Source: Romanomermis culicivorax (Eukaryota > Nematoda > Enoplea > Mermithida > Mermithidae). Taken from it: 64,000 nt of DNA. The first letter of the stretch is position 1; the number at the start of each line of letters is the position of its first letter. Below the pieces are notes generated by a model, which had not been told where the DNA came from, did not search any database, and was given only the letters and a program-made list of their open reading frames with translations. The stretch lies in NCBI GenBank assembly GCA_963922205.1, contig CAWUHX010000144.1:62001-126000 (forward strand), in the 5' to 3' direction. This document shows positions 30,111-61,889 of the stretch, piece by piece. The position numbers and the translations under genes are program-made.

Positions 30111-30224
30111 GAGATCGACTCCTAAAGTCTCTGCGATGACGAGTTGAGACTCAACTTACGTTAATCTTTCTGAAAAAAAATTTGAGGTTTTAAGGCGGTA
30201 GAACACTAAGGAATTGATTTCAAA

Positions 30225-31745: not shown

Positions 31746-32987
31746 CATACCTGCTTTAAGGGGGAGGTTCGGGGGAGGAACCCCACAACCAACTTGGTCG
31801 AACCCTGTACCCACCCCCACCAAACTCGCAAAAATTGGGAAAAAAGTGACTTTTTTGGCCTTTGGGAAAATTTTCGAAATTTTCTTGACTTTTTTGGGGT
31901 TTTTCCGACTCTCTCCCCAAAATTTTCGAAATGTTGGGACCCCCACCACCGTTTTTTCCTCAAATGAGGTCTTTTAAGGAAAAAAATTTGGAAATGAGGA
32001 AAAAAATTTTGGGTATGGTTCTCATCGTGGAAAAAATTTGGGGAATTCAAAATCGAAAAGATGCGTTTTGCTGGACTTTATAAGGTCAAAATCTCAAAAT
32101 TTTCCGGCGCTTCGCGCCGGTCGGAGGTATAGTAATCATTATTTTCTATCAGGCGCGGCCGTTAGCATATCTACTTCCACTTACCAATAATCATCAACCG
32201 TTTCTATCAATGAAGTTAGCTCATCTTATTTTTAAATCGTAAACAGTCAGTATTCCGCTGAAAAAACAATTTTTCATCAATTCTCTCAATTTTTTCTCCC
32301 TTTTGGGTTTATTGAAAATGGAAATTGAAGACATCATTCTAGACTGCGATTTTAGAACTTCTATTTACGAATTTACGAATATCCATTGGAGAGATTTATT
32401 TTCAAGTGTTTTAAAATATAAAAACTGAAAAATTTTTCCGGCGCTGCGCGCCGGAATGGGGAACAAATTACAGTCGGATTTTAATTTATTTCCCAACGTT
32501 GTGAAGGTTAAATTTCCAGCAATTTAGAAAGTGAAAATCCAAATATTTTTCCGGCGCTCTACGCCGGGACAAAAATTAAATAAAATTGGATAATACTAAT
32601 TGGAACCACAGAAATATTAATATTGTAAGATAAATTCATGACAACTCTGTCATTAAAATGCTTTCTCTGCTCTTGTAGAACACCAACATATTCATCAGCT
32701 CATTTTGACTAACATAACCAGAATTTTCTCAATTTCTTCCTAATTTTTGCAGGTTTCTGAATCCAAAAGCATCAAAATGCTTGGGTATGCTCCTAAAATG
32801 CATAAAAAAGCATCCGTAGGCACATTATAAACGTTTTTAAAAATGTGGAAAATTTTTGGGAAATGAGGAAAAAAATTTTGGGTCCGGTTCTCATGTGGAG
32901 AAAATCTTCGAGGAAAAAAACGGTGACCCGCACCCCAAAATTTTGGGTTTACCCTCCCGCCAACTGGTCGGACCTCTTGCAGGTATG
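31746..32987. mobile_element. CATACCTG MITE copy B3, split by D2
   Basis: The left part begins CATACCTGCTTTAAGGGGG at 31746; the right part ends CAACTGGTCGGACCTCTTGCAGGTATG at 32987. Element D2 (31947-32925) is inserted in the middle. The flanks share ATGAAAG but with an offset, so the duplication is imperfect. Confidence 0.75.
31947..32925 (+). mobile_element. Family D hAT-like element, copy D2, nested in B3
   Basis: 979 bp. Inverted ends CACCGTTTTTTCCTC and GAGGAAAAAAACGGTG. Target duplication ACCCCCAC / ACCCGCAC (7 of 8). Contains the subterminal palindrome CCTCAAATGAGG (31958-31969), repeated TGAGGAAAAAAATTT, and internal hairpins CCGGCGCTTCGCGCCGG, CCGGCGCTGCGCGCCGG and CCGGCGCTCTACGCCGG. 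No transposase. Confidence 0.9.
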
Positions 32988-33009
32988 GAATGAAAGTGCG
33001 TCTTTGGAC

Positions 33010-34307
33010 CAGGGTTGGCGGGCATTAGGTTTTTTTGGGTTCGAAAATTTGACATTTCTGGGTTTTTCAGTTTTTGAAAAAAAATTCATTTTTTCCATTT
33101 TATTTTCAGAAATAAAGTGTATTCCTGCTTTAACAATCAAAATGAGAGTTGAGCCAACTTTAGTAACTGCAATGCAGTGTTTTCTTACACTGACATGACA
33201 ACAGAGTAGAGATGAGACCACACAACAAACAAATCAAATGCTATCGTAAATTTTCAATTCAGGAGACTTCTTAGCTTTATTCGATTCGGTTCATATGACT
33301 ATTCTGTTGAGTTGACTTATTCTAATCGAAAAGCTAAAGATTCATATACAATAAATTTAACTTATGTTTGAATTGTTTTTTGGCTGAAGTTGATTTGATT
33401 CGGTAGTTTATCTGAACATTAGGCAGATTTTACGGCCCATGAGTCACTGAGCAGTGCTGGTGAGCAATACACAGCATTACTTGTGACTGCTAAAGTCTGC
33501 TCACAGCCATCAACATTTGGTGAGATGACTTGAGCAGCCCTAAAATTTTGAGCGAGACAGCAGACCCACTGGAGAAAGAGGCAGCTGGCGGCTTTCTGGG
33601 TACAAAAATGGGACCATCAACCAAGTATTTTGGTTGAATGGCTGTAAGCAGTATGAATGTTGAAGAAAGAAACATCAAACTTTTTTTCAGCCTGCAAAAA
33701 CACAATTTGCAAGCAACTCAATGAATAAATGATCTCGGCAAGTGAATATGATGAAAAAAATACGTTTTGTTACAAAATGCTGGAGAGCGGTCAAAAATCT
33801 GCTATGCAATGTTGGTTGACGGAAGGCAAAACGTGGCTCTCGTTTCAAAAAATTGCCTTGAGAGTACGTTTTTTAAGACTATTAATGGCCAGCAAGCGAA
33901 ATTTATTTTGTCATGTTATAATCACGTGTTTTCTATTTTGGTGTCCACTGCGTCATCAGAGCGTAATTTTTCAACATTTGGCATTGTTCACAGCAAGTTG
34001 CACAATCGATTGCCATCTGGATCAGTGAAAAAGCTAGTCTTCATAAAATTCAATGCCAAAAATTTTTTTGACGGTGCATTAGTTTATAATTTCATTTGTT
34101 ATGATAAGGAATCTGTATTTTTGCTTAAAATCAGGAACAACGATATGAAAATGTTTTGCATTATGAAGAATAAAACTTTAGATATGTTGCATTTGCTTTT
34201 CTTTCATCCTTAATCTATATCCACAATTGTGAAATAAAAAAAACCCCTGATTAAACCCAAAAAAACCCAAATTCGAAATTTCGAAAATGAGTTTTTTCCC
34301 AACTCTG
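33010..34307 (+). mobile_element. hAT transposon with decayed transposase C-terminus
   Basis: 1298 bp. Ends CAGGGTTGGCG and CCCAACTCTG. Perfect 8-bp target duplication CTTTGGAC (33002-33009 and 34308-34315). The plus strand at 33767-34110 encodes STASSERNFSTFGIVHSKLH and then KLVFIKFNAK, the hAT dimerisation-domain signature. The upstream part of the frame (33500-33760) is broken by stops. This is a non-functional transposase fragment and the clearest proof of the superfamily here. Confidence 0.9.
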
Positions 34308-34317
34308 CTTTGGACAG

Positions 34318-34469
34318 CATACCTGTAATTGGGTTGGGGAACTTAGCCAACCACCCAAACCCCCCCCCCCAGTTTGGAAAAAATTCGCAAAAAAGTGCCT
34401 TTTTTGGGAAAAATTTCGACTTTTTTCGACCCCCCCCCCCCCCAACTGGTCGGACCTCTTACAGGTATG
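34318..34469. mobile_element. CATACCTGTAA MITE, copy B4
   Basis: 152 bp. CATACCTGTAATTGG at the left, TCTTACAGGTATG at the right. Perfect target duplication TTGGACAG (34310-34317 and 34470-34477). The left duplicate overlaps the CTTTGGAC duplicate of the preceding hAT element, so B4 landed immediately beside it. Carries two C-homopolymer tracts (34363-34370, 34431-34442). Confidence 0.92.
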
Positions 34470-34512
34470 TTGGACAGGAAACTCTAAAACTAATCAAAAG
34501 GGCCATCAGGCC

Positions 34513-34748
34513 CATACCTGTAAGAGGTCCGACCAGTTGGGAGAGGGGGGGGTAAATCTGAAATTGGGGGGGGGGGGAATCCGAAATTTGGGGGGAGGGG
34601 ATCGAAAAAAGTCGATATTTTTCCCGAAAAAGGCCAAAAAACATACACTTTTTTGCAAATTTCAATTTTTTCCAAGCTGGAGGGGGGTTGGAGAGGTTGG
34701 GTATATGGTTGGCCGAGTTGGGGGTCCCCCCCCCCAATTACAGGTATG
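34513..34748. mobile_element. CATACCTGTAA MITE, copy B5
   Basis: 236 bp. CATACCTGTAAGAGGTCCGA at the left, AATTACAGGTATG at the right. Perfect duplication ATCAGGCC (34505-34512 and 34749-34756). G-tracts near the left, C-tract near the right. Confidence 0.92.
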
Positions 34749-34806
34749 ATCAGGCCTCAAGTTGAACTGTGCAACCCGGATGTAAAAATTTATTTACAGC
34801 CCGGAA

Positions 34807-34995
34807 CATACCTGTAAGACCTCCGACCAGTTGGGGGGGGGGTAGAAAAAGTCGAAATTTTTCCCAAAAAAGGCCAAAAAACATACACTTTTTTGCACAT
34901 TTTTTTTTACTTTTTTCCAAACTGGGGGGAGGTTGGATGATGTTGGGTACATGGTTGGCCAAGTTGGGGGGTCCCCCCTCCCAAGTACAGGTATG
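34807..34995. mobile_element. CATACCTGTAA MITE, copy B6
   Basis: 189 bp. CATACCTGTAAGACC at the left, AAGTACAGGTATG at the right. Perfect duplication GCCCGGAA (34799-34806 and 34996-35003). Confidence 0.92.
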
Positions 34996-35544
34996 GCCCG
35001 GAATTTGGTCGCTCCGTGCAGGTTTTTTTACACACAGCAACCAAATTTGGGGCTGTGCAACCAAATTTTTTCTGCCAAGTTGCACAGTGCAACTTGAGGC
35101 CTGACCCTGACTGCTCTTCTGATTAAGTTAAAGGGTTTTCTGTCCGGAGATGCATTTTTATGCGTTCTAAAATGGAAAAAAGTGAAAAAATTTTCTGGCG
35201 CTTCGCGCCGGGTTTCAATTCATTTATGATTTTACATAGTATTCTAGTGCGCAGTTATAAAAGGTCATTCTAGGTAGTGCTTACAGGTTCCAATTATCAA
35301 CATATTATGGATAAATGTTTGATCCTGTATTGTTTGTTGACGAATTTGATGAAAACTAACATTTTTCTCGGTCATTTTTCCCAAAATTTTTTTGACCTTC
35401 TTCATAAAAATTTCAACTTTCATGTGATTAAAACATTTTGAGTGTAGAAACTTTTGCCGATTGAAAGACCCAAATTCTTGGTCGCCTGCGTAGTTTTCGA
35501 GTTTTAGTTTGTCTGACCGAAAATTTATTAAATTCACTGGGAAA

Positions 35545-36576
35545 CACTGTTTTTTTTCCACATTTGCACTATAATGTGGAAAAAAAATTTGGAATGTGGA
35601 AAAAATTTTTGAGGTCTTTCCACAAATGTGGAAGAAAAATTTGGGGTTTTCATATTGAAATAATGCATTTTGGTGCATTTTAGGGGGTCCAAATCTCAAA
35701 ATTTTCCGGCGCTTCGCGCCGGTTATAACTTTAATAATAATCATTATTAAGTAGCTCAGGCGCGGCTTTTATCATGTCTACCTTCATTTATCACTTAATC
35801 TATACTTAATAGTTTTCATCATCTTAAACGTAGTATCTCATGTTTTAATTGGTAATCTTCAACATTTTATCATAATATTTAATGAAGATTCGCATTTTTT
35901 CCTTTTTAAGAAAGATCAATACACGTCAAGTCTCTATGATTTATGATGCGATTATTTCTTTGCTAACGTAAAATCAATTCAAAAGCTTCTGGGAAATATC
36001 TTTCGGAAATGTATTACCCTTCATTCTCATATATTTTCGACCAAGTTCATGAGAGTTTACAAATAAATTACAGATTTTAAAATTTTTCAAGTAAAATTCT
36101 AGAAATTACGACTCTTGAACACAAAATTATAATCTAATTCTTGAAATAAATGTTCGGAAAAATGATTTTCCAGCATCCCAGAATGTCAATATACCAAAAA
36201 ATTTTTCGGCGCTCCGCGCCGGAAAGTACCATCTTTTTTGGGCTTTCACTTGTCATCAAAGAGGACTTGACCATTGATTTCTTGTGTAATTCAAGTCAAT
36301 TATGCTTTTGGATAGTTTGCTAGAAAATTTGTTCAACAATGCTTGTAGATTAGGCTTTTAAGTCAACATTACAATTTTTTCTCCAATTTTAATGAATTAA
36401 CTTCTCTAAAAACACCGGAAGACTTGAAAAAGCTCAAAAACAGTGCGATAAAGCGTCTGTGAGCATTTTTAAGCCAAAAAACAGATTTTAAGACGAAAAA
36501 AATTTTTTCCACATGTGGAAAAAAATTTGACCCCTTTCCACATTTGTGGAAAAAAGTTCGTGGAAAAAAAACAATG
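35545..36576. mobile_element. Family F hAT-like element, copy F1
   Basis: 1032 bp. Ends CACTGTTTTTTTTCCAC and GTGGAAAAAAAACAATG. Perfect target duplication CTGGGAAA (35537-35544 and 36577-36584). Subterminal palindromes CCACAAATGTGG (35620-35631) and CCACATTTGTGG (36538-36549), with GTGGAAAAAAATTT repeats. Internal hairpins near 35705 and 36200. No coding capacity seen. Confidence 0.92.
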
Positions 36577-36766
36577 CTGGGAAATCATATCTTCTGTCTG
36601 GGAAATAAAAGGTAAAAAGATTCATTTTCCAGCGTTCTAGAATATTGAAATCCAAAAAAAATTTTCGGCGCTACGCGCCGAACTAATTACTCTAGTCTAG
36701 TCATATTAATCTTTCCTTTTTGTCTCCAAAACTCAGAAAATTGGGTTTTAAATGCCCAAAACCGAC

Positions 36767-38819
36767 CACCGTTTTTTTTCCTCGAAGATTTTTTCCACAT
36801 GAGAACCGGACCCAAAATTTTTTTCCTCATTTTCCAAAAATTTTCCACATTTTTAAATACGCTTATAATGTGGCTACGGATGCTTTTTTATTCATTTTAG
36901 GAGCATACCCATGCATTTTGTTGTATTTGGAGTCAGAAACCTGTAAAAATGAGAAAAAAAATAAGAAAATTCTAGTTATATTAGCCAAAATGAGCTCATG
37001 AGGAATATATTGGTCTTCTACATGAGTGGGTGAAGCATGTTAACGAATAACGATAGAGTTCTCAGGAATTTATCCGCTATTAACATTTCTATGGCTCTCA
37101 TTAGAATCATCTAATTTTATTTAGTTCTTGGTCCGGCGCGGAGCGCCGGAAAAATTTTTGGATTTTCACTTTCTACAACGCTGGAAACTGAACCTTCACA
37201 ACGTTGGGAAATAAATTAAAATCCGACTCATGAAGTATCATTTGTTTCCCATTCCGGCGCGAAGCGCCGGAAAAATTTTTCAGTTTTTATATTCTAAAAC
37301 GCTGGAAAATAAATCTCTCCAACAGATATTCATGAACAGAAGTTCTAAAATCGCAGTCTAGAATGATGTCTTCAATTTCTATCTTCAATAAACGTAAAAG
37401 TTCAGGTTGCAGACGTTTAAAAAATTCCAAACATCGAGAGAAAAAATTGAGAAAATTGATCAAAAATCTCAATATTGGGCGACATAATTGACTGTTAACG
37501 ATTAGAAAATGAAACGAGCTAAAACTTGATTGATAGAAACTGTTGAGCATTAATTAGTAAGTCGAAGTAGATATGCTAATGGCCGCGCCTGATAGAAAAT
37601 AGTCAAACCCGTGACCGGCGCGAAGCCACTGTTTTTTTTTTCCCCAAATCGTGCTTTTTCGGGAAAAAAAATTCGGAAAGGGGAAAAAAATTTTGGGCTC
37701 TTTCCCCATTTGGGGAAGAAAATTTTGGGGATCGGATACAGAAAAGATGCATTTTGGTGCATTTTAGAAGGTCATAATCTCAAAATTTTCCATCGCTTCG
37801 CGCCGATTATAACTTCAATAATCATTATTATGCATTACTAACCCCTGGCGCGGCTTTTAGCATGTCTACTTTCATTTATCATATAATCTATAATAGTTTT
37901 CATCATCTTGAACGTATTATTTCATGTTTTCAATGGTAATCTTCAATATTTTATCATGATATGTAATGAAAATTCGCATTTTTTCCTTTTGAGAAAGATC
38001 AATACGTCAAGTCTCTAAGCTTTTTGATGCAATTATTTCTTTTCTAACGTAAAATCAATTTAGATGCTTCATGGAAATATCTTTCAGAAATTTATACTCT
38101 GCTTACTCATATATTTTCGACCAAGTATGAGAGTTTACAAATAAATTATACTGGTTTTAAAATTTTTCAAGTAAAATTCTAGAAATTACGACTTTTGAAC
38201 ACAAAACTCAAATCTACTTCTTGAAATAAACGTTCGGAAAATTGATTTTCCAACGTCGCAGAATATCAATACCCAAAAAATTTTTCCGGCGCTACGCGCC
38301 GGAAAGATTAACATCTCTTTTAGGTTCTCACTTGTCAACATAGAGGACTTAACCATCGATTTCTCATGTAATTCAAAGTCATTATGCTTTTGGATAGTTT
38401 GCTTGAAAGTTTGTTCCAATGCTTGTAGATTAAACTTTGAACTCGAAAATTTCAATTTTTTCCTCAATTTTGATGAATTAACGGGTCTAAAAACACCAGA
38501 AGGCTTGAAAAAGCCCAAAAACACGTAAATAAAGCGTCTGTGAGCACTTTTAAGCGAAAAAAACGACTTCGGGAAAATGGGGAAAAAAATTTTGATCCCT
38601 TTCCCCATTTGGGGAAAAGGCCCGGGGGAAAAAAAAAAACAGTGCGCGAAGCGCCGGAAAGTTTTGAGATTTTGACCCTTTTAAGTCCACCAAAACGCAT
38701 CTTTTCGGTTTGGAATTCCCCAAAATTTTTTCCTCAATGAGAACTATACCCAAAATTTTTTTCCTCATTTCGAAATTTTTTTCCTCAAAAGACCCTATTT
38801 GAGGAAAAAAAAAACGGTG
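36767..38819 (-). mobile_element. Family D element, copy D3 (inverted), interrupted by H
   Basis: 2053 bp including the nested element H. Ends CACCGTTTTTTTTCCTCG and GAGGAAAAAAAAAACGGTG. Target duplication AAACCGAC / GAACCGAC (7 of 8). Internal hairpins at about 37132, 37255, 37615 and 38645. Without H it is about 1 kb, like D2 and D4. Confidence 0.88.
37627..38644. mobile_element. Family F-like element H, nested in D3
   Basis: 1018 bp. Ends CACTGTTTTTTTTTTCCCC and GGGGAAAAAAAAAACAGTG. Perfect target duplication CGCGAAGC (37619-37626 and 38645-38652), which is the loop of a D-family GC hairpin. Subterminal palindrome CCCCATTTGGGG twice (37704-37715, 38603-38614). The interior resembles F1 but the arms are G/C runs instead of CCAC. 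Confidence 0.92.
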
Positions 38820-38974
38820 GAACCGACGCGGATCCAATGAAATACAAAAAAACTAGTTTGCGATGGTTATTCTGATAAATTTAAGCAAATTTATCGATTT
38901 TAGAACGAGCAACCAAAATTTTTCCCCAGGTGACACATTGCAACCTGGCCTGTGCGAAAAAACCTGGCTCCGCT

Positions 38975-39793
38975 CCGTGCACAAAAATCCTCCATTGCAG
39001 AAGTTGTGTTCATCATGTCAGCTCTGACTTCTAGATATTTACAGTGCATTTAATAATAGTCTGTCAACTTTCGCAACTATAATTACCTCCATAACAAAAT
39101 TCAAAATGAGTAAAACACCAAGGAGAATTTTTGTAGAACAAATAGTAACAAAATTTTACTTGTATAAAAACGGTAAAAACGACTCAGAAAAACGTTAAGA
39201 TTACAATTATATTCAAAGGAGACGCAGCGAAAACCAAGAAGGTAAGTTCAATTCGGTACACTATGATGGAAACTTAATACTGTACAAAAACGCCAAATTT
39301 CCTCTCGAGTGAAAAAATACTGAAGTCATTGAAGAAATATTATGTTCATCCGCACTCGATCTGGATTGAACTGTGTCGATACATGGGTGCTTTTTGAGCA
39401 ATTTGATCCCTTAATCAGGTAACTGAGGGAAATTCTCAGCGGCTCAGTTCACAGCTCACTGACGAAAAAACTTCATTGATTACAGTAACAAGCATACCAA
39501 CTTCTCCATATTGCATATTGCACTCAATTTCATGGGATCGCTGTATTAATCATTCCAAAATAAACGCAGTAAAATGTCCATCTTCAAATGAGTCTCACAG
39601 AAAGCTGTTCGTGCAAACAAACAACATGCGTACACGGGCACCTTCTTTCCTACCGTAACAAATGAGAACAGCCTGAGACAAGAGATTGTGGCATTGAATG
39701 CAGGTCTATTATTTCCTCGCGGCTTTAACAGATTATTTTGCAAAGCTCATTTGAAAATGAATGGACAATGGAACATATAACTTCCAGAAAAAT
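38975..39793. other. Spacer downstream of RIF1
   Basis: About 800 bp between the repeat tower and the RIF1 stop codon. No gene or clear repeat recognised; should contain the RIF1 3' untranslated region. Confidence 0.4.
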
Positions 39794-45700: not shown

Positions 45701-48700
45701 AATAGAAAGTTACTTCAAATTTTCAGGATAGTTTAAATTCTGACATTTGCCAAACGTATTATTCCAGAATTTCGAAGTAATCTGTCGTAATTTGGGATCG
45801 TCGATCGACAACAGATGATTCAAAAAAACTTCAAAGGATTGCAAAAGCTCTGTATCGAACTGAAAAATTTCTGGCTGACCGGTAACCGAATCCAACATCT
45901 GATTCATGCAATTGAAGATCTAAAATAGACAAAAAATGTATAACCTACCTCGCTCAACAAACAAAACCCTGGTATGCAAAGGCGTAGGTAAAGTTGACTC
46001 AAGAATTTTTTGCTTGATATTGCTGTAAATGCATTTCACGAGACTGAAAAGTGATGAACATCGAAAATTTTCCAACTCTCCGCACCAAAAGTCAATATCT
46101 GTTGTTTTTATGATTTTTGCACGTTGGCGACATGTGAGAAGTTTGAAAAATGTAGCTTTTATCACGCATAGTGCGTATTTGGACGAAGTAGTAAAGAAAA
46201 ACAACAAATAGAAAAAATTGGGCATTTTTAGTCAAAAATTAGAAAAAATTTTGCATCCCCCTTTAAAAATTCCAGCCTACGTCCCTACTGGAATGTGTAT
46301 GCTCAGGTTCAAAAGCTTCAAACGTTATTTAGGTAAACTTTATTTGGAGAGCTGGCTTACGAGAAAAGATCATAAAAATTTTATTCTTGGGCAGCAATGG
46401 TCAAATGTCAAAAAATATGGGCAATTATGAACATTTTCAAGTTTTTTGAGAATCTTTGGGACAAAATCGCTTCAATTCGCAACTCCAGCAGCACTGAAAC
46501 ATATTGAAATCTGTATACGCCACTGTTGAAAAATTCTTAATCTTCTGCTAGAAATTACAGAAATGAATGAACTTTTTCTGAAACAGATCAAAACTCTACA
46601 CTTACATTATTCAAACTTTTTAAGCAGAACAGCTAAAAAATGAATAACGTATAATTCAAGAAACTAGTCTTTACCTTCGAGTAGCCGGAAGATCTTTTTT
46701 CGACAAATTTTCTATTCCTTGATTTCAATTCTACAAGAACGTTGGTAAATGATACAGTCAATTTCTCTATCGTAACTTTAATGTCCACTTCCAGTCGAAT
46801 AAATTTGAATTTAATTTCCAAGCAAGTAAGAATATTTTGTAAAATCATGTCGGATGTTTTGTCGCTGCTCTAAAAAAGTGTGTTTAGTAATAATTGAACA
46901 TTCGACGCTTTTCATCACTAAAATAGAAGAAACATAACGAGACACTCGTACATGACGTCAAGAACTCTTAATAAAAACATAAAAATCGATATTATGGAAA
47001 GCTGGTTATACTCTGATTTCTACTGCCCTCCGTAAGAAGAAACTCGTAAAACCTACAAATAATCTAAAATCTTACTTCGAAGTCCAGGAAGCGAATATTT
47101 TCCGAAAATAAATTTAACAAAAAACGGAGTAAATTTGTAGAAGAAAGAATAGCAACTTTTTCGTTGGCGGTGGGATTCGCCGGCGACTTCTTCGCTAGGT
47201 GATTCATTTTCACCGGACTTAACGCCAAAAATTGTTGTTGGTTAAACGATACGTCAAGCCTCTGATTTTCCAACATAATTTTCACTATCTCCGATAATGC
47301 GAATAAAATAGGGGGCTTCTAAATATGATAAAAAATATTGTAAGGAAACATTTGCGAATGCAATAACATGTTATTTACGTTTAAACGTATTCCAGGAATT
47401 TTGACAAATAAAGCGCATAATTCTTCGATGAGCGAATTGGCACTGGCTGAAGTTGTGAGACCAGCGCATCTCAGACATTCACAAAAGATCTTCTTCCATT
47501 GAGGCACAAAGGTTTTCAGGAACTAAAATCAAAAAATGAAGCGGGTAGGCCAAATTTATGAAATTAGAAATTCTTCAAGTAGAGTACATATATGTAAATA
47601 GGCGAAGTGCTATAGAAACCCCCCCCCCGGAAATCGTCGACGCAATAGCTAGCCATTGGGCAACCCGTCCCTCAGGATTTTCCAATCCTATGGCTAGCCA
47701 TATGGTAGTCGTAAGGACCCCCATACTTTTGGTCGGAAAAATACTGAACAATCTCAATTTTTTAATGAAAATGTCAATTTTTGAACAAAAAATGGTCAAA
47801 AATGTAAATTCTCTGGGCGCTTCGCACCATAAATACATTTTTCAGTCTTTTAAGAAAAAATTAATATTTGTTGAACTTTTTCGTGAAAAAAAATCGAATT
47901 TTTTTCCATGAGAGACCCCTCCCTCAAAAATTTTGGGAATTACTGATCCGCGGCCCTAAAAAAAATTCGCCCAACCCCCCTCCAGACCTCAGGGCCCCGT
48001 TACATTTATGGAGTGCTAATGTAAAAAAAACTGATTTTCAAAGTAAGTAGTCTTGAACAACATTCTTCCTTCTAGCGAACATATATATTTATAATTATAT
48101 GACAAAAAACTAGGGCTTGGCTAGGAGGAGTGGACGATCGCCTCAACCTGACAGGCCCATTGTTCGCTGTCAAAAAGAGACACTTCGAAGACTCAAAACT
48201 TTTCGGCCGGAAATTTTTAAAAAATTTAAAAATGAATATGGACGTCGTTTTTTAAAAATTTCCAAAAATAGTCAGTGAAACTTTAAAGAATTGTTATACA
48301 TATGTATGCAATTATTTACTATAGCTTGGGTTTATCGAAAATAGTTTTTTAAGCAGATTTTTTGGGGTTTCCAGCTGGTTGACGGCGCCGTCTAGCTGAT
48401 TAAATGAAAGCATCAGTAAATCTGCAGATTGACCAGGTCTGATACGCATGTTTTCTTCAACAATAGTATTTCCAGTTCACACCAGCATGAAAAGTCTATA
48501 TGTTGGGGACAGTGTTTTTTTTTAGCCAAATGGCCTATTTTGGCTAAAAAAATTTTGGTTTGGCTAAAAAATTTTTAGAGGTTTTAGACAAATGGCTAAA
48601 AAAAATTCGAGTACTCTTTGTTCGTGAAAATTGTATCAATGACAAGAAAACATATTGTATCAATGACAAGAAAACTCCATTATATTTGCCTGTCATAACA

Positions 48701-51700
48701 GCTGCTCCATCAGAGGTGAACATGAAAATTTTTTTTTATCAATGCCAACCATTGTAACCCATTTGTCGATCGCTTCGGCGATTGAGGACGCATCACACTT
48801 TTCTATTTCATGTTCCAAATTTTTCTCCATCCATCAGACACTCAACATTGCACACATTCAGGTAAATCAATAGTAACTTAGAACTACTGACATCGGTTGA
48901 CTCATCAATGTGAATACAAACAGCGGAGGATCGTTTAAAAATTTCAAATTGTTCGTTTTTTACGGACTGGTTCAAAGCCAAAATGATTTTTTAGGTCGAA
49001 TATAAAGATCGATGCTTGCCTGGTAGCTTTAAACTTTTTCTCCTCCTTCTCCAGACATATTTCCATCCATTTTGCAGCTACTCAAGGCACGGTCAATGTG
49101 AATATCACACAACAAATGAATAAAGTCCACTTTATTTATACTCATTTCTTTCTGTAGAGATGCCAACACATTTATCATAAGACCAACGGTTTGTTCTGAA
49201 GCCTTTTTGTTTGCCGTTATCACAGCTTTCTGTAAAAAGTTAGCTTGTTATCAGATATTTATATCAGCATTTCAAAATTTCGAACAAAAATAATCGCTTT
49301 GTTCCTGAAGTAATAACATAACTCTTGAAAACACCTTACATAACCTGTTTAATATTTAAAAAACAATCAGTGTATCACGTTTGGGCGAAATGAAAACTTT
49401 AGCCTTTGGCTAAAAAAATTTTAGTCGTTTTAGCCATTTGGCTAAAGACGTCGTGCTAAAAAAAAACAGTGGTTGGGGATGTGCTTATGGCAGTAGCAAT
49501 CCCACATCCATGCAAAATTGGTGAATCGACAAAGTTACGATTCCACCAAAAAAGGGAAGAAATAGTCATTCGTGTTTACCTTCTGCAATTTTGGTGTGTC
49601 GTGGGCGAGTCGCGTCCGTTATATATTATATTGTTCTGTTTCGCCCAATAAAGGCAACGTCGACAGCCCGACACCCCAATTTGCATATTGTTAGTAATAT
49701 TATTATTTACTATTTATTTTATTATTACTTGCGCATTAAGCGGAAGGAGGGAGTCGCATTACACGGGAGCCAAGCCAAGGTAGGTCCCAGCTCCTTTGGA
49801 TATTATTGAAGTGAGTTTTGTGTATTTGTGTGAACCTTTAGGAGGCATCTGGGGAGACCCTGAGTGCCCTTCGATTGCAAGAGTTGGAGTTCCCAGTTAC
49901 TTATTAGTGACTGAAGGTTGTGTTTATTTCTGCTTGAGGACTGTTGCACTGTGTTCAGTTGATTGCAAATAGGAAGCTCCTTTGAGTGACCTACAGTAGT
50001 CAATTGAGTACAAGCCGATAGGACTCGAGTTATATTGCTGACATCTTCGGATCTAAGCAGAGAAGTAAACATAACATATATATAATGATATCATTACATT
50101 ATAGCATCAGCAAATCGATTCGCTATGTAATCAGTAGGAGAGTTTTGGTGGTTTAGATCAGAAATCACCCAATAAGAGTTTGACTCACACAGATATGTAT
50201 ACATCCCAAATGGTGACTTTTCAAAATGAACTTCGAACATATCGGGTTCATACACAACAAGGGAAACCTGGGATTTACATCATAGGATTATTTTCTGGGA
50301 AAAATGAGAACCTTAGAAAATCGGGGAAATTTGGATGGAGTTGAAAAAGACTCTTGACATCTGAATTGGCAGATGTAAGGAATTTGAATTTGCACGAGAA
50401 GAATTATTGCGGACTGGATACACGAAAAAGTTATCAGTGCTCTGACTGCCACTCTAAGGAAATGGTTTGAAATAAACCACGTGTGTCGTGGATTGACTTT
50501 CGAATTTGAGAATTCCTCCTGAAAAAAACCTGGGAAAGTCAAGGAACGTGGCGGTCTGAATAAACTCCGCATCAACATTTAAAATTATCATCTCTATTAA
50601 AGTTCGGTTGGCCTCCTCCAGATTTTTTTCCTGCTAGTGTACTGATCACTACGACCCAAAGGTCAAATTTACCTTAGCATTAGCGAATTCATCAATAAAG
50701 TGAACGAAGGGGAACAATAATAGATTGTTCACACACTCAAAGTTGTGATTTATTGCGTCACCCTGATCGATTTCGTCCTTCTGGATTAAAATTGAAAAAA
50801 TATAATGAATATATTGCATCAGTAACAGTAAGATACATCATTGAAGGGAATGGAGAGAAACAATTCATGATGCAACAAAAATCTTACACAACTTAAAACG
50901 GTTGAAGTGTATGAAAAAGCTTATGTAATTAAAATTAATTCAATTAGAGCCCAAGAGCTTCACCGCATAATGCACATTTTCTCTTATGAGAAGAATCAAT
51001 GAGTTCACTACATAACGCATGTTACTGCTGCTTGTTAAAAAGCGGGTTGAGTAATAAAAATCTAAATTGGAGCAAATATGTTGCATAAACTTCTATGGTC
51101 TTACAATTTGCAGCGTCTTGAACATGCTACTTGTCAGCACGTCCCATATCGGCGCCAAAATCGCTTTCGTCCATTTTGAATTGTTCGTCGATACAAGAAA
51201 TTTCAAAATTTCTTCCGCATTGTTTAAATATTTCATCTTCCAATCACCGCATAGAGTTGAAATTGTTTTAGTGGCCAACTTTAACCTAGATTAATAAAGA
51301 TAGTGCGTTTTTACAAAAATTAGCCAGTATAATTGCGCTACATCTTTTCGGGATTTTCGCGTAATAATTTCAGGGTGGGAGATAAAATAACCAAACTCGA
51401 TAAATCGGTTTCAAAAGTATCTCGCAGTAGAGGAACATGAATGAAACGAAAACATAAGGAATCCAGAATATTGTTGACGAGATCCTTAAACAAATAAATG
51501 CCTGAAAATATAACGGTTATCTGGACCATTGAATCGTAAGTTTACGTAAACTAATGTTTCGTCCAGATGACACTCGTCGAGGAAACTATTGAGGTGGAGA
51601 ATGTAACACTCGAGAAGGCATTGGAAGGCGGACTTTGACAACAGTTCGGCTTCATTATCTTTTATGCATTGACATATGATCGTCCATAACTTGATGACAA

Positions 51701-54700: not shown

Positions 54701-56453
54701 TAAACAGCTTGGTGAAGGTTGAATGTACGAAAGCATTGTTAAATTTAAATTTAGGAGAGTTGCATCATTTGAATTGATGTCAGTACTGTCGTGATTCTGG
54801 ACGAATGTTGCAAATTATTTAAGTCGAGGTTAAGCAGGAAAGTCTTCCTATAGCACTTACAGTCTTAACTAGCGGTTTCAAATAGCTGAAATCGGCGTCC
54901 TTGAGGTTCGCTGATAAAACCACGTCAAAAAATTGTAACGCTTTCTGTTGAACTTCCCACGAATTATTTATCAACAGTTTTAACAATGACGGAATCCATA
55001 GACGATGTTCTACAGACAAATCATGCCAGCATTTATCGTGAACACTATATCAAGAAAGAATCCACATAAACGAAAAAAACCCAGTCAAACTTTTCTGAGG
55101 AAAATTCCACATTCTAAAAAGCTAACCCCGATAGAAAATCAAGGACGTCCAAACACATTCCGGGCGAGGAGAATCCGTGATCTTCGACGATTTTTTCGAT
55201 GAAAAATAGAATCTTTCGGATTATCCTTTTCACTACAAGTAACGGTAATTTTTTTGACGATAAACAACGAACACAATAACGTGCCAGATTCACTTGTCGT
55301 GACATTTCGACATCGAAAAGTGCTTAAAATGAAATCTCAGTTTGGAAACAACGACAAAATATTTGACAACATAAAAATAAATAAGATGTCTATACCATCT
55401 AAAATGTTCCCCACAGCCCCTAAACTGAAATTTCTATCGTAGTCGATCATCGGCAACAAAACTGACATAAGCTTAGCTACACATTCAGCAACGGATGGGT
55501 CTTTCAGGTGATGAGCAGCATTCTCTATCAGAGCAGATAGATTCGGCTGCAGGAAGGTCAGCATCCGACTCGGCTTGTTTTCGACCGCACTGAAAGAAGA
55601 ATTTGAATTAAGGCAAATAAAAATATGATAACTTCATGATTTGCAGAATTACTTTGAAGTTCGGCGTATGAAGAGTTAGAACCCGCCCAGATATGACTTT
55701 TCAAGGTCAGTAGGAATATTTGTACCAACACGCAGTAACTTGAGCATCAAACGGTGAACCTCGTTGAGATTTACATATCCAAGAACATGTAAAATTGCGT
55801 ATCTCCATTTGGAGGTGGTCAAAGCTGGATTTATATGGTGGATAACCATTATTCACTACTTATGTATCTATTATTCACGCATTATTTCAATGTTTGTAGA
55901 TGCGTATTGCAAGCATTGAGCAACAACAAGTCACATTTATAAGGAATTTGATTGTATCTCCAAATGGTCGAATTCTCAAATATACTCGACCTGTGCCACT
56001 CTTCGAAAAAATCTGAAAAGCCTTAAAAATTTTTAAATTGTAAGTTTGCCCAAAAACTTAAAATTTTTGTTTATCAATCCTGTATGCAGCATCAACAGAG
56101 TGAAAGTCATTGTAATTATGAGTGTACGCTTTCATTTTTTGGAAAAATACATTTTTTCACCGCTCACTGAGCTTTACACATAAAATTTATGAAAATAAGC
56201 TACCGCTTCCAATTAGAACTGACTTTCCTCCGTACCCAACTAGCCGGAGCTCTTCCGAATCACGAATGACTGCTTTAGAGGCTATACGATGGAATGTGCT
56301 AAACGCTCAATATAGTACACGCTTTACAAAAAATTTTCAACATAGGCGAACTCACGAAAGTAAAGTTTCATAACTGCGCTTCAAAGTCGACGAATCGAAG
56401 TTGTCATGTTTGTTCAGCAGATCGCTTATCGCATGCTCGACCTTTGATACCAT
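39794..56453 (-). CDS. RIF1: RIF1 orthologue, replication-timing and telomere factor with PP1-docking C-terminus
   Basis: Rif1 recruits protein phosphatase 1 to late-replicating chromatin and protects DNA ends. N-terminal exons: 56356-56453 (ATG 56451-56453), 55396-55589, 55127-55322, 54861-55044, 54583-54672 and 54176-54533, with matching phases. These encode the HEAT-repeat array (WIPSLLKLLINNSWEVQQKA; YALRCWSNIVKLTGK; LEKVKVWILLINSLG). Further coding exons, ends approximate: 53980-54072, 53590-53935, 51486-51752, 51338-51510, 51107-51290, 50675-50785, 47370-47525, 47060-47320, 46665-46870, 45712-45915, 45515-45655, 45040-45335, 44475-44560, 44330-44412, 43605-44152, 42840-43470, 42060-42212, 41075-41277, 40490-40745 and 39794-40176. 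A disordered middle carries a GILKRK motif (42906-42917) and KVHF (42197-42208), matching PP1 SILK and RVxF sites. The end has AVYPSLVN, YLPIRQPKIKTLRSALEKF and a C-terminal helix, as in metazoan RIF1. Several introns carry hAT-type repeats. Confidence 0.9.
44741..44961. mobile_element. Possible mariner-type MITE in a RIF1 intron
   Basis: Left end ACAGGGTGACAAAAAAAGG and right end GTTGTCCCACTGT are imperfect inverted relatives and resemble mariner-type termini. A TA precedes the left end; the right TA is not obvious. Extent approximate. Confidence 0.35.
47587..48010 (-). repeat. Family A repeat, copy 3 (inverted)
   Basis: Reverse-complement copy of the same ~420-bp repeat inside a RIF1 intron, bounded by CATATATGTAA and TTACATTTATG. 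It carries the CTAGCCATTGGGC and TTTTTGAACAAAAAATGG blocks and C-tracts. Termini resemble those of the CATACCTGTAA MITEs, suggesting a related end type. Confidence 0.75.
48510..49471 (-). mobile_element. hAT element with transposase fragment in a RIF1 intron
   Basis: 962 bp. Ends CAGTGTTTTTTTTTAGCC and GTGCTAAAAAAAAACAGTG. Perfect target duplication GTTGGGGA (48502-48509 and 49472-49479). Minus-strand frames between 48780 and 49223 give an N-terminal helical stretch and then CIHIDESTDVSSSKLLLIYL; the DESTD motif (48892-48906) is typical of hAT transposases of the ZBED5/SCAND3 kind. Frames are broken by stops. Subterminal TTTGGCTAAAAAA repeats and the palindrome TTAGCCATTTGGCTAA lie at the ends. 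Confidence 0.9.
49480..50660. other. Unclassified RIF1 intron DNA, possibly an LTR remnant
   Basis: Part is less AT-rich (49590-49990) and contains CCCAATAAAGGC and GTGTCGTGGGCGAGTCGCG phrases reminiscent of a retroelement LTR. No paired repeat, primer-binding site or protein was identified. No RIF1 exon was recognised here. Confidence 0.25.
51880..53403. mobile_element. hAT-like element J in a RIF1 intron
   Basis: About 1.5 kb. Left AGTGTTCATACAAAGTTGG and right CCTGGTTTTCC-type repeats leading to TTGTGTATGAACCCT are inverted relatives. Flanks GTATACAC and ATATACAC agree at 7 of 8. Both ends carry tandem TTTTCCAGG units. The interior holds GC hairpins (52820, 53290) and, at 52895-53018, a smaller GGCTCCTAA-type palindrome ending in AAAAAAACCCTG. 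Confidence 0.75.
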
Positions 56454-58280
56454 AGCGCCTATTCGTAATTTGTTGACGGCGTTAATTATGCAACGGTTCA
56501 GCAAATAATTTCAAGACTGATGAGCAAGAGTTTAGGGCCAAGCCGACGTCAGAACATTTTTAACAAAAGATGTAAACTAAGGTAAGAAGAATGAACTAAT
56601 AAAAACTTGACACGCTGGCGTTGTCAGGCTTTTTGCACACAACAAACAACCAAATATCAGGCAGTGCAACCAAATTTTTCCTGTTACGTTGCACGTACAG
56701 CCTGAAAACCTTTTTGATTAGGTTGTAGGGTTTTCTGTTCGAAAATGCATTTTTATGCGTTTTTAAATGGAAATACTGAAAATTTTCTGGTTTCCAAATG
56801 ATTTATAATTTGTCGTTGCAGTCTAGTGCGCTGCTAGAAAATGTCGCACTAGCTTATGTTTAAAGCTTTTAAACATCCAACACATCCTCAATAAACGTTT
56901 CATCCAGTATTGTCTTTTGACGTACCTTTGAAGAAAATCAAGACTTTTTTCGATTATTTTCACAAAATCGTTTTGCGGTATTCGAACATGTAACTTTTCG
57001 CATTCAGACAATGAATAAAACATCATCAGTTCAGTAAAGGACAATGGCTAAAGCCCTAGCCGGTTGAAGTTGCCACTTGGCACAAATTTTTTGAGTATTG
57101 TCAAAAGACTCAATTTTTTATTTTACAGTTTAGGGTCAGAAAATTCAAAAATTTTTGAGCGCTTCGCGCCGATACAATGATTATAAAGGTGCATTCTGGT
57201 GCATTTTAGAAAGTTAAAACCTCAGAATTTTCCGGAGCTCCGCGCTGGTGATGATTGTTTTGATTATTGCTAGCTATAATCCAGTTCAGGACCGTAAGCA
57301 TGTCTATTTCACTTATTCAATAGTTGCTACCACCTAGAATGTTTCATCTCATGGTTTAGTCAGTGCATTTTGGTATCTAAAGAGAATGAAGATTTTTTCG
57401 TTTTTTTCACCAGATTTTTCTGCGGTCTCTACAAATTTTTGAACTATGTGAACATAATTTTTTTTCGTTCGGCAGATAATTGAAGCATCATCAGTTTGAC
57501 AGAGATCGCTGGTAGACAAATCGAAATTTAGGTTGCTTTTCTGATTTTTCAAATTAGATGGCATGCTTTCAATATGATTTTTTGTATTTTGTCCGACTAT
57601 GATGAAAAATGATTGAATTGAGTGCAAAATTAGACCACTTAGAAATAAATGTCGAAAAGTTTAATTTTCAGCGTTCTAATATCAAAACTACAAAAAAATT
57701 TCTGCGCTTCGTGCCAGAAGTCTTTGTCTATTTACGAATTTTGTTGTTTCGTCCAAATTTATTAAACATCAGTGACTTCAAGCTGATTGTTTAACTGGTT
57801 AGCAGGTTGAAAGCATCCGCTCCGCACATTGTTCAAGCATGAACATCATTAGGCCGGAATAATCAAATCTTGAATCACGAAATGAGTCTTGAAATGATTT
57901 ATCTTCCAAGGTTCTAGAGTATCGGCATCCGAAAATTCTTCCGGCGCGAAAAATGATTAAAATGTAGTGAGTGTATGATTCTTCATTTTAGCTATGCACA
58001 GATATGTCAGCAGTCGAATTTGTATACAATTTAGGTTTTTCTCGCTTTGGTTTTTTGTTAATTTGTTTGTAACTGTGAATTTTGATGAATTCTCATCATA
58101 ATCTGACTCAAAATTCCAAGACTTTTTTTCTATTTTTGATAAATTATACTGACTGCAGAAGTATGAATATGTTCAGAAAAGCTCAACAATGCATGGAAAA
58201 AGCATAAGATTGCATTTTTAAGCGAAAAACGATATGGCGAAAATTGCACAAAATTTTGACTTCTTTCGCTAAATGGCGGT
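56454..58280. other. Intergenic region upstream of RIF1, decayed repeats
   Basis: No gene found. 56635-56720 has a CAGGCTTTTTGCAC / CGTACAGCCTG inverted pair. From about 57100 the sequence resembles family F (GAGCGCTTCGCGCCG hairpin, GCATTTTAGAAAG, GTAAGCATGTCTATTTCACTTA). The RIF1 promoter should lie at the left of this stretch; none was recognised. Confidence 0.45.
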
Positions 58281-58311
58281 CTCCGCGACACAGTTTTTTT
58301 TGTGCCAAAAC

Positions 58312-58483
58312 CATACCTGTAATTGGAGGGTTGGGGGGGGGACCCCCCAACTTGGCCAACCATATACCCAACCCCCCCAGTATGAAAAAAATTGGCAAAA
58401 AAGTGTTTTTGGCCTTTTATGGGAAAAATTTCGACTTTTTTTCGACCCCCCCCCCCCAACTGGTCGGACCTCTTACAGGTATG
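58312..58483. mobile_element. CATACCTGTAA MITE, copy B7
   Basis: 172 bp. CATACCTGTAATTGG at the left, CTCTTACAGGTATG at the right. Perfect duplication GCCAAAAC (58304-58311 and 58484-58491). Inserted about 20 bases inside the left end of E2. Confidence 0.92.
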
Positions 58484-59279
58484 GCCAAAACATGGTTTTC
58501 GTCACAAAAAAATTCGGAATGGCGCAAAAAATTTAGGGTATTCGTGCCAAATGACACAAATTTTTTGGAATTTTTTTACAAGTCGGTTCCCTTCCAAATT
58601 ATGGTCCAAACTGGCATTTTTTGACTCCTCAAGATGCCAGCTATCCAGATCTGTTCGAAAATCCAGGCGCCCATGGCATTCAGGAACTCATTTGCATAAA
58701 ATCTGCACACAACTCACATAGTCTTTGTCACTACAGAAAAATCCTACCTACTTCAAGAATCATCAGCCTATGGACTTAATTCTTTTTTTTTGTTTGTTTA
58801 CTAGTCGACGACAATAGAAAGCAAATATAAAAAATCCATAGAGTAATACGGTGAAACACTAAAAACATTTTTGAGACGGAACAAATGTAAAAAGAAATAC
58901 ACAAGGATAGCGAGAAGAAAAAAATATCCAGAAATTAGACAAGGTTAAAAAACGGAAATAAAACAGAACGAAAGTTTCAACGTAATGTAAGTTCGAAATG
59001 AACAAACTACTGTAAAGAAAGTTCGATTAGTCTAGGAAGCGCAGATTACAAAGTGTAACGAATCGACTACCGCTACACAATTTCACCAGAAAGTATAAAC
59101 AATATATTCCTTTAAGATCCTTGATACTATTTTAACTAACAACTTCATTTGGAAGAGCCTCAACAGCACAGTCATTCAGTGTGACTAAGAACCAAAATTT
59201 TTATTTTTGGTGTTTGATTCGAACAGAAAAAATGACATTGTTGGCGCAATTTTTCAACCAAAAATTTAGGCGACGCGAC

Positions 59280-60172
59280 CAGTGTTTTTTGTGTGCTAAA
59301 ACATGGTTTTTGGCACAAAAAAAATTTGAAATGGCACAAAAAATTTGGAGTGTTTGTGCCAATTGGCACAAAAATTTTGGCTGGTCAAACATTAAATTTC
59401 CTAGATTTTTAGACGTTTTAGGGGCTGAAAATACAAGAATTTCTCGGCGCTTCGCGCCGAGTCAATGAACATAATATTTCCTATTCCTATATTTGACCCG
59501 CCCAGCGCGAACGATTTCTCTCCGAACAGTGTATTGGTATCGTTGCAGAATGACTGATGAATGAGAATAAATTCTGAATATTCCCTGTTAATTCAGTCAG
59601 ATTCGGATGAAAAACGTTGGTAATGTTGGTAATGGTACAATATTCCGACCGAAAATTTACGCAATTTTAGACTTTATTCTCTCTAGTCTTTACATTATAT
59701 AAGGTAAAGTGGGGTGACTTTGATCAGGGGTGACTTCGATCAGAGTATGGCATTTGATAACTATTTGAGATCAGCAGGTCATTTTTGCTGTGTAGCCAAC
59801 CTCACAGCACCTCAACCCCCCCCCACCCCCCAATTACAGGCATGATTTGAACTTCCTGAACAATTCTAGAATTATTTAAATTTCGTCAGCATTCCATTTC
59901 TTTTAGAGTCATCGTGAAATGTTTTCTTGCACATTTTTTTCTTATCTGACTGAAATGGTTTAGCTGAAAAATAGGTTGAGCAGAGCACGATGATTATTAC
60001 AAAAAATTAATGCGTTTTAAACGTTAACTTTTCACTAAACTTTTGGAATAAAACTTTTCCGCAGTTTTTCAGCATGTTTCTAGTAGAAAAAATTTTTTGT
60101 GCCATGGGCACAAATTTTTTTTGGCCGTTTGTGCCAATTGGTACAAATGTTCCGTGCACAAAAAAAACGCTG
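59280..60172. mobile_element. Family E hAT-like element E1
   Basis: 893 bp. Ends CAGTGTTTTTTGTG and CACAAAAAAAACGCTG. Perfect target duplication GACGCGAC (59272-59279 and 60173-60180). Subterminal palindrome GTGCCAATTGGCAC (59356-59369), with an imperfect copy at 60131-60144 and GGCACAAAAAAATTT repeats. One GC hairpin, TCGGCGCTTCGCGCCGA, near 59450. The 59.70-59.84 kb part includes a C-tract and an AATTACAGGCATG fragment of the MITE family. Confidence 0.92.
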
Positions 60173-60604
60173 GACGCGACTCTCGGCTCAGTCAGGAGAA
60201 AGCAATTAAGTCATTCTTAGTTTATTTACATTGGTGTTAAGAAGAAATTCGTAGCCGAAAATTAAGGAAAAATACAAACTGCCTGACAAATTCTGTAAAA
60301 ATGTCTGAATTGTCGCAGCATCCGATTTCTTTTCGAATCGTATACTTAAACCGTTTTCTCGATCAGTTTTTCTTATCGCACTGACGTGGTTAGATAAAAT
60401 GGAGTAGGCACGATTTTTATGCAAATTAGTGCGGTTAAAGTAATCTTTAGTTAAGTACTCACTTATGTTTTTATCAAAGTTTTGGCATATAAAATTTTTT
60501 GAAGTTTCTCAGTATACTTATGTTTTTGGGCGGAAAAAATTTTCTGTGCCATTAGCACAAATTTTTTTAGCCCTTCGTGCCAATTGGCACAGATGTCCGT
60601 GCAT

Positions 60605-60814
60605 CATACCTGTAAGAGGTCCGACCAGTTGGGGGGGGGGGGTAAATCCGAAATTTGGGGAGAGGGGGTCGAAAAAAGTCGAAATTTTTCCCCAAAAAAG
60701 CCAAAAAACATATACTTTTTTGCAAATTTTTTCCAAACTGGGGTGGTCGGGTATATGGTTGGCCAAGTTGGGAGAGGTCCCCCCAAACCCCCCCCCCCCC
60801 CAGATACAGGTATG
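60605..60814. mobile_element. CATACCTGTAA MITE, copy B8
   Basis: 210 bp. CATACCTGTAAGAGGTCCGA at the left, AGATACAGGTATG at the right. Target duplication CCGTGCAT / CCGTGCAC (7 of 8). It lies about 20 bases inside the right end of E2, mirroring B7. G-tract near the left, C-tract near the right. Confidence 0.88.
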
Positions 60815-60878
60815 CCGTGCACCAAAAAAACACTGCGTCGCGAAAAAACAGTGCGGGCGGCGGCTGCAGCCACCACGG

Positions 60879-61889
60879 CACCGTTTTTTTTCCCAAATGG
60901 GGTCTTTTGAGGAAAAAAATTTCGGAATGAGGAAAAAAATTTTAGGTATGGTTCTCATTGTGGAAAAAATTTTGGGGAACTCTAAACCGAAAAGATGCGT
61001 TTTGGCAGACTTTAAAAGGTCAAAATCTAAAAATTTTCCGGCGCTTCGCGCCGGTCAAGGATATAATTATAACTATATTCTATCAGGCGCGGCCGTTAGC
61101 ATATCTACTTCGACTTAGTAATTAATGCTCAACAGTTTCTATCAATCAAATCAAGTTAGCTCGTTTCATTTTCTAATCGTGAACAGTTTACAGTCAATTG
61201 TCGCCGAAAATAGAGATTTTTCAACAAGTCTGTCAATTTTTTCTTTCGATGATTGGAATTTTTTAAACGTTTGCAATCTGAACTTTTGCGTTTATTGAAG
61301 GTGGAAATTGAAGACATTACTCTAGAACGCGATTTTAAAACATTTGTTCACGAATTATCTGTTGGAGAGATTTATTTTTCAGCGTTTTAGAATACAAAAA
61401 CCCGAAAATTTTTCCGGCGCCGGAATGGTAAGCAAATTACACTTCAGTCTGATTTTAATTTATTTCCCAACGTTATGAAAGTTCATTTTCCAGCGTTTTA
61501 GAAAGTAAAAATCGAAAAATTTTTCCGGCGCTCCGCGCCGGACCAAGAACTAAATAAAATTAGATGATTCTAATCGGAATCACAGAAATGTTGATAGCAG
61601 ATTCATGGGAACTCTATCATTAACTTGCTTTATCCGCTCCTATAAAAGACCAATATATTCCTCATTTTGGCTAACATAACCAGAATTTTCTCAATTTTTT
61701 CCTCATTTTTGCAGGTTTCTGACTACAAATACAACAAAATGCTTGGGTATGCTCCTAAAATGCATAAAAAAGCATCCGTAGCCACATTATAAGCGTTTTT
61801 AAAAATGTGGAAAATTTTTGGAAAATGAGGAAAAAAATTTTGGGTCCGGTTCTCATGTGGAAAAAATCTTCGAGGAAAAAAAAACGGTG
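60879..61889 (+). mobile_element. Family D hAT-like element, copy D4
   Basis: 1011 bp. Ends CACCGTTTTTTTTCCC and GAGGAAAAAAAAACGGTG. Perfect target duplication CACCACGG (60871-60878 and 61890-61897). Hairpins CCGGCGCTTCGCGCCGG (about 61038) and CCGGCGCTCCGCGCCGG (about 61527). TGAGGAAAAAAATTT repeats at both ends. It aligns by eye along its whole length with D2 and with the inverse of D3. Confidence 0.95.

Follow-up and report, generated by a model that had tools for sequence, protein, structure and literature searches.

Why do transposon-like elements that share one end design bear different short words at their ends, and why does the word at one end of such an element agree with that at the other? 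This question is raised by a stretch of 64,000 nucleotides (nt) from the nematode Romanomermis culicivorax (assembly GCA_963922205.1, contig CAWUHX010000144.1, forward-strand positions 62,001 to 126,000). The whole stretch is called the window here, and all coordinates refer to it. An original prediction made on this DNA had described palindromes with a fixed A/T core and family-specific arms just inside both ends of several elements. This observation holds in the main, and its interpretation as a set of diversified transposase binding sites is partly supported. Eight elements with flanking duplications have a common end design, in which 9 or 10 half-sites per element each combine a word with an adjacent A-tract. 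The half-site is a better unit of description than the palindrome. Within an element, the words at the left end mostly agree with those at the right, and from one family to the next they differ in concert. We consider it probable that these elements are hAT-like non-autonomous cut-and-paste transposons and that each half-site serves as a putative dock for one transposase subunit.

The elements were delimited by pairing CANNG followed by at least four T with at least four A followed by CNNTG, at a spacing of 100-8000 bp over the whole window. Of the 74 tip pairs examined, 8 are flanked by a duplication of 8 bp that has no more than two mismatches, where about 0.3 would be expected at random by our own arithmetic. 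The duplication is exact in F1, H, S, E1 and D3, has one mismatch in D2 and G and two in E2. All elements lie on the forward strand unless stated otherwise. One D family comprises D2 (31947-32925, duplication ACCCCCAC/ACCCGCAC), D3 (60879-61889, CACCACGG), G (36767-38819, reverse strand and thus of opposite orientation, AAACCGAC/GAACCGAC) and the decayed copy D1 (30222-31472, reverse strand), for which no duplication was recognised. D2 and D3 are 80% identical, and the longer piece of G is 86% identical to D3. G is split by H (37627-38644, CGCGAAGC) together with one 8-bp copy. H and F1 (35545-36576, CTGGGAAA) are sisters with 83% identity over 1,009 columns and interior differences at 90 of 791 aligned pairs (11%). 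S (48510-49471, GTTGGGGA) is the 48.5-kb element of the original prediction. E1 (59280-60172, GACGCGAC) has a more distant relative in E2 (58289-60835, CTCCGCGA/CGTCGCGA), to which it is 83% identical over 86 columns on the left and 68% over 343 columns on the right. E2 contains E1 and two short CATACCTGTA insertions. H lies within G and E1 within E2; therefore, these elements moved at different times.

The half-sites are named L1-L5 and R1-R5, five per end; read along one strand, each has its word ahead of an A-tract. Words occupy fixed positions within ~110 bp of both tips, and one adjoins each terminal T- or A-tract. In MAFFT alignments of the ends, A-tracts are among the conserved columns, as is CA..TG on either side of the core, and the words lie between these columns. 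The word seen most often is GAGG in D, GTGG in F (10/10 half-sites of F1), GGGG in H (8/9, the remaining one CGGG), GGCT in S (8/10) and GCAC in E (9/10 in E1, 6/9 in E2). The same words are found at L2, L3 and R5, which are not arms of the inner palindromes. Arms had been predicted to precede A-tracts in a fixed form. Literally, GGGG-AAAAAATTT is absent, and the one instance of GAGG-AAAAAATTT lies on the minus strand; A-runs in the ends are 5 to 11 long. The inner sites of F, H, S and E share the core CA-WW-TG, from which those of D deviate (CATGTGG, CATCGTGG).

In the mechanism that we favour, the ends would form ordered arrays of half-sites for the DNA-binding domain of a transposase. Each half-site would offer a variable word of 3-4 bp followed by a constant A-tract, and inner pairs would face each other across CA-WW-TG, D excepted. 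The domain, possibly of the BED type, would read the word, while affinity and geometry would depend on A-tract and core, and several transposase subunits would hold the array. Each family would have a mobilising transposase with a domain specific for the word of that family. If a lineage moved to a different transposase, selection would change all half-sites of the element in concert, which might also protect families from cross-mobilisation.

One main rival assigns the word to another reader, an element-encoded protein that is not a transposase, for instance an anti-silencing factor like VANC of the Arabidopsis VANDAL elements, which belong to a superfamily other than that of the elements studied here. 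The DNA pattern by itself cannot name the reader protein, and VANC21 and VANC6 do recognise distinct short motifs, which change in concert within related elements (PMC5735166; this and the other papers are cited for those parts of their text that were available). However, VANC motifs are located in tandem repeats of introns and upstream regions (PMC5735166), whereas the words in the window have fixed positions near the tips, as hAT subterminal sites do. We regard a VANC-like reader as unlikely.

Whether both ends of an element present the same word was examined in three ways. When shared k-mers were counted with strands merged in D2, F1, H, S and E1 (one element per family), with or without the terminal 15 bp, the true left-right pairing was the best of 120 permutations in 10/10 settings, 1/120 being the lowest possible p. 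When words were permuted among families at each site, same-word pairs (145/207 observed) fell to a mean of 32.7 and left-right pairs (83/115) to 18.6, and 0 of 20,000 shuffles reached either value. The same held for three other element sets. The main sets exclude E2 and Q, the latter being a right-end remnant described below; D1 was excluded as decayed, R5 of E2 enters only the fourth set, and Q is in none. The half-site contexts were hand-picked from alignments, which favours agreement in the word counts; the k-mer test and the MAFFT columns are free of this choice. In the third comparison, words were set against spacers in G, F1, H, S and E1, with word columns defined from F1 and E1. In the word columns, left and right modules of the same family agree at 0.89, and both values for other families, at the same and at another position, are 0.48 (plain means here and below). 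The F1 value of 0.73 in this comparison is depressed by a one-base alignment slip. With words masked, the corresponding values are 0.70 for the same family and 0.67 and 0.62 for other families at the same and at another position. This means, within one element the words agree while the spacers hardly do. Arms that correspond at the left and right ends and vary jointly from family to family, as had been predicted, are thus supported by all three comparisons.

The spacer values also bear on the proposal that the ends agree because one was copied onto the other or converted by it, or because an end was recently duplicated, without selection for recognition. Such a history would be in line with a module of 44-70 bp that L3-L5 and R2-R4 share as a direct, not inverted, repeat in D2, D3, F1, H and S. 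Its identity amounts to 79-87% in five of six elements compared; the exception is E1, whose longest match is inverted. Yet, left and right spacers of one family are barely more similar than those of other families once the words are masked, and the spacers of F1 agree with those of H at the corresponding end, left or right. Copying between ends is an improbable source of the agreement.

The concerted difference in the sister pair F1/H is an uncommonly clear case. The left end of F1 (35545-35649) with L1-L5 is homologous to that of H (37627-37731), and the word differs at all five half-sites. The right end of F1 (36487-36576) with R1-R5 is homologous to that of H (38555-38644), where R1 is absent and the word differs at the four half-sites present. 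Read towards the A-tract, position 2 of the word is T in F1 and G in H at 9/9 shared half-sites (L1-L5, R2-R5). The same type of change (T to G, or A to C) affects 14 of 543 A/T positions in the interior. Under independence, a 9/9 switch would have a probability of ~5e-15, a figure that overstates the case because two sites (L1 and R4) needed alignment by eye. An automatic alignment with nine F1 half-sites marked (L1-L5, R1-R4) yields six switched, one unchanged and two gapped sites (Fisher p 0.0002 against the other end columns). L1 appears unchanged owing to a shifted gap, R1 is gapped, being absent in H, and R4 is affected by a shifted gap. R5 was not caught by the marking pattern, and R1 was marked in its place.

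Could the families instead have captured ready-made ends of unrelated elements via recombination, so that words differ by end ancestry? S found no match other than itself when elements were searched against the window (E 1e-6), and Q adjoins an E-like piece. However, the positions of half-sites and the A-tracts align across the ends of different families, and F1 and H align from end to end. Capture of foreign ends is quite improbable as the origin of the words.

How strongly the ends are constrained depends on the pair compared. Ends are conserved among the copies of the D family, whose three pairs differ at 10/180 end versus 102/766 interior positions, 9/179 versus 99/777 and 5/181 versus 80/808. 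In F1/H, by contrast, the ends are more diverged than the interior (31/172 versus 93/816). The ratios of end to interior differences are 0.42, 0.39 and 0.28 for the D pairs and 1.58 for F1/H. The contrasts between each D pair and F1/H have p values of 0.0011, 0.0008 and 0.0003, where the three contrasts share data and F1/H is a single pair. Such a pattern is expected if function holds the ends within a family and they are altered upon a change of partner.

The palindromes from which the original prediction started are present: CCTCAAATGAGG at 31958, CCCCATTTGGGG at 37704 and 38603, CCACAAATGTGG at 35620, CCACATTTGTGG at 36538, GTGCCAATTGGCAC at 59356 and 60577, and TAGCCATTTGGCTA at 49431. Their assignment to both ends of each element applies to two elements, as H (37704-37715, 38603-38614) and F1 (35620-35631, 36538-36549) have an exact palindrome on either side. 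S is exact on the right (49431-49444) and reads TAGACAAATGGCTA on the left, with one mismatch; E1 is exact on the left (59356-59369) and reads GTGCCAATTGGTAC on the right, again with one mismatch. The second exact GTGCCAATTGGCAC (60577-60590), which had been attributed to E1, belongs to E2. The palindrome of D2 (31958-31969), supposed to stand at both ends, occurs only at the left and there at the terminal L1 position, not at the inner position seen in F, H, S and E; the inner right-end counterpart in D2 is TTCTCATGTGGA. Counted as 12-mers with a 4-bp arm, four A/T and a matching arm, with at least two G/C per arm, palindromes number 30 in the window. Eight of them fall in the 2,160 bp of element ends, compared with a mean of 0.75 (maximum 5 in 500) when the ends were resampled with a first-order Markov model. 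The other 22 lie in the remaining 61,840 bp; resampled whole windows contain 15.4 on average, with a maximum of 23 in 20. Three of these outer palindromes have a CA-WW-TG core (1678, 9782 and 55803). Those at 1678 and 55803 were inspected and are taken as chance occurrences, because no A-tract or tip adjoins them. That the palindromes are DNA hairpins or cruciforms whose arms covary only to preserve base pairing is highly improbable, since, despite the excess of exact 12-14 nt palindromes over chance in the ends, L2, L3 and R5 lie outside the inner palindromes and bear the same word, differing along with the paired half-sites in F1/H, and D lacks an intact inner palindrome, yet its copies bear duplications.

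Are the elements hAT transposons, as had been proposed? Flanking duplications of 8 bp, the length typical of hAT, accompany all eight. The tips of hAT elements are short, inverted and of the CAGNG type. Here, left tips read CACCG, CACTG, CAGTG or CACAG and right tips CGGTG, CAATG, CAGTG, CGCTG or CACTG, each beside a T or A run; they are near this type, not uniform. The consensus of the duplication is nTnnnnAn in the Ac group and nnnTAnnn in the Buster group. Among the left copies of the eight duplications, position 2 is T in 3/8, position 7 is A in 4/8 and position 4 is T in 0/8. The duplications match neither consensus, and therefore the elements are filed in neither group. The duplications are G+C-rich (43 of 64 bases; the window as a whole has 0.36 and the flanks nearby 0.435).

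S contains broken coding fragments on the reverse strand (48547-49247), and we take this broken frame to resemble hAT transposases. A 94-aa piece joined by hand weakly matches the end of Pfam DUF4371 (E 0.026, 14.9 bits, under the cut-off of 32.1), as does a 48-aa join (E 0.05, also below the cut-off). A 57-aa single-frame piece and two longer joins have no DUF4371 match in Pfam. In Pfam searches with S, four single pieces found nothing, one join only DUF3908 (E 0.057) and another join nothing. The S pieces have no match among solved structures, and NCBIfam returned only weak, unrelated-looking hits (E 0.054 and 0.084). Searches of viral_contigs and genome_contigs revealed no relatives of an S piece and 0 matches in either to the body pattern of D, F and H. 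A separate hAT element (33010-34307) has the tips CAGGGTTGG/CCAACTCTG, unlike those of the eight elements, and the exact 8-bp duplication CTTTGGAC. Its open reading frame (ORF) matches Dimer_Tnp_hAT with E 1.9e-8, the clear hAT domain of the window; for the hAT ORF at 33755-34210, no relatives were found in viral_contigs. As the DUF4371 match in S is below threshold and the clear hAT domain lies in another element, membership of the eight elements in hAT is likely but not proven.

Several observations weigh against docking of a transposase as described above. No BED finger, intact transposase or DNA-binding domain for these families was found in the window, and the DUF4371 match of S depends on hand joins in addition to being sub-threshold. 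One to three copies per family are usable, with one sister pair. Free variation of the arm within a family, which the original prediction had named as evidence against itself, is partly seen in D. GAGG occupies 4/9 half-sites in D2, 4/9 in D3 and 6/9 in G; all three copies have GAGA at L4 and R3. GTGG, the word that F1 has at these sites, stands at R4 of all three and at L5 of D2 and D3. The mixture may represent a half-finished change from an F-like state. In E2, 3/9 words are not GCAC, and a GGCT-type A-tract occurs at 60559. With word columns set from the F1 words, differences between F1 and H are barely denser in them (6/20 and 7/20) than in other end columns (24/92 and 17/66), whereas between more distant families they are denser, as in F1 and S (14/20 and 16/20 versus 26/93 and 21/68). 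The F1/H columns are not clearly denser because three of the four word bases are mostly unchanged; therefore, the argument from F1/H is carried by concordance and by the ends taken together. The excess of differences in the F1/H ends has p = 0.022 against their own interior alone, and gaps in the end alignment may inflate it. Finally, Hermes retains ~70% activity after mutation of putative sites inside its left end (PMC10368747), and therefore not every repeat need be required.

Further features of the window touch these elements. Short CATACCTGTA...TACAGGTATG elements of 152-236 bp are located at 34318-34469, 34513-34748, 34807-34995, 58312-58483 and 60605-60814. Four have exact 8-bp duplications and one has a duplication with one mismatch; two of the elements lie inside E2. 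A hairpin unit that resembles CCGGCGCTTCGCGCCGG and is preceded by an A/T stretch occurs in the bodies of several elements and outside them (for example, 32094-32131, 35185-35222, 36655-36692, 59434-59471). Q (58200-58288, continuing at 60844-60853, forward strand), whose left end was not found in the window, might represent a sixth family. Its words were read by eye as GCG at four half-sites; the family is tentative, because R2 holds a GCAC-type site in the automatic alignment. Upstream of Q, a segment like the left part of E1 (57071-57186) abuts one like the left body of F1/H/D (57187-57260), and this composite is perhaps a recombinant or nested remnant. Coding fragments in the window match ABHD16_N, Gcd10p, protein kinase and Rif1_N.

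The ends described here are real and well organised, and the mobile DNA to which they belong is of a known kind; element-specific subterminal motifs of hAT transposons are already known. Subterminal motifs specific to families have so far been known one element at a time. A further-reaching reading, which we put forward as possible rather than probable, is an interchangeable docking system within one genome. On a fixed scaffold, a word of 3-4 bp, roughly what a single zinc finger covers, would be replaced at every half-site and yield mutually exclusive families, F1 and H being set apart by one identical base change at nine shared half-sites. If this is true, sibling families with a shared scaffold and a concerted word would allow the splitting and independence of families to be studied base by base, and they would provide natural pairs of word and finger for BED-type domains. 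It would also be relevant to non-autonomous elements, as these have to follow whichever enzyme mobilises them.

How does this arrangement compare with known systems? In the literature searched, as far as titles, beginnings of abstracts and passages tell, no such series of sibling families is described; for the Tip group, the available text indicates that target preference was not studied and offers no subterminal data (PMC3942097). In agreement with the original prediction, hAT transposases are known to recognise short motifs near the element ends, and these motifs vary from element to element (PMC3143072, PMC10368747, PMC8097297). The BED finger of Hermes reads a 4-bp motif and binds tightly only when an AT-rich stretch follows, and two Hermes BEDs bind a quasi-palindrome cooperatively (PMC10368747). 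The elements in the window resemble Hermes in the 4-bp word with an AT-rich stretch, the quasi-palindromic pair, several copies near the tips and the unequal arrangement of the two ends. They differ in that Hermes uses AAGT in one element, whereas here the word varies by family and inner pairs flank CA-WW-TG; in addition, the Hermes reader is a BED zinc finger (PMC10368747), while no reader protein for the elements here was found in the window. Herves, a mosquito hAT, likewise repeats one short motif, CGATTCAT, at both ends, but is a single element and not a series of related families on a shared scaffold; according to its authors, the regions bound by hAT transposases differ in sequence between transposons (PMC3143072). 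Binding arrays revealed diverse preferences among hAT-derived proteins that have such domains; for each of the four hAT-encoded proteins that yielded a motif, this motif matches its own subterminal regions (PMC8097297). Maize Ds elements share with Ac the tips and, in part, the AAACGG repeats (PMC3260210). These non-autonomous relatives keep tips and part of the subterminal hexamers while their bodies differ, as in the window, but one hexamer serves the family and no concerted replacement is seen (PMC3260210). Such a concerted change of short motif arrays between related families is found in VANDAL/VANC, where, in contrast to the ends studied here, an anti-silencing protein binds and the arrays are tandem repeats of internal non-coding regions (PMC5735166).

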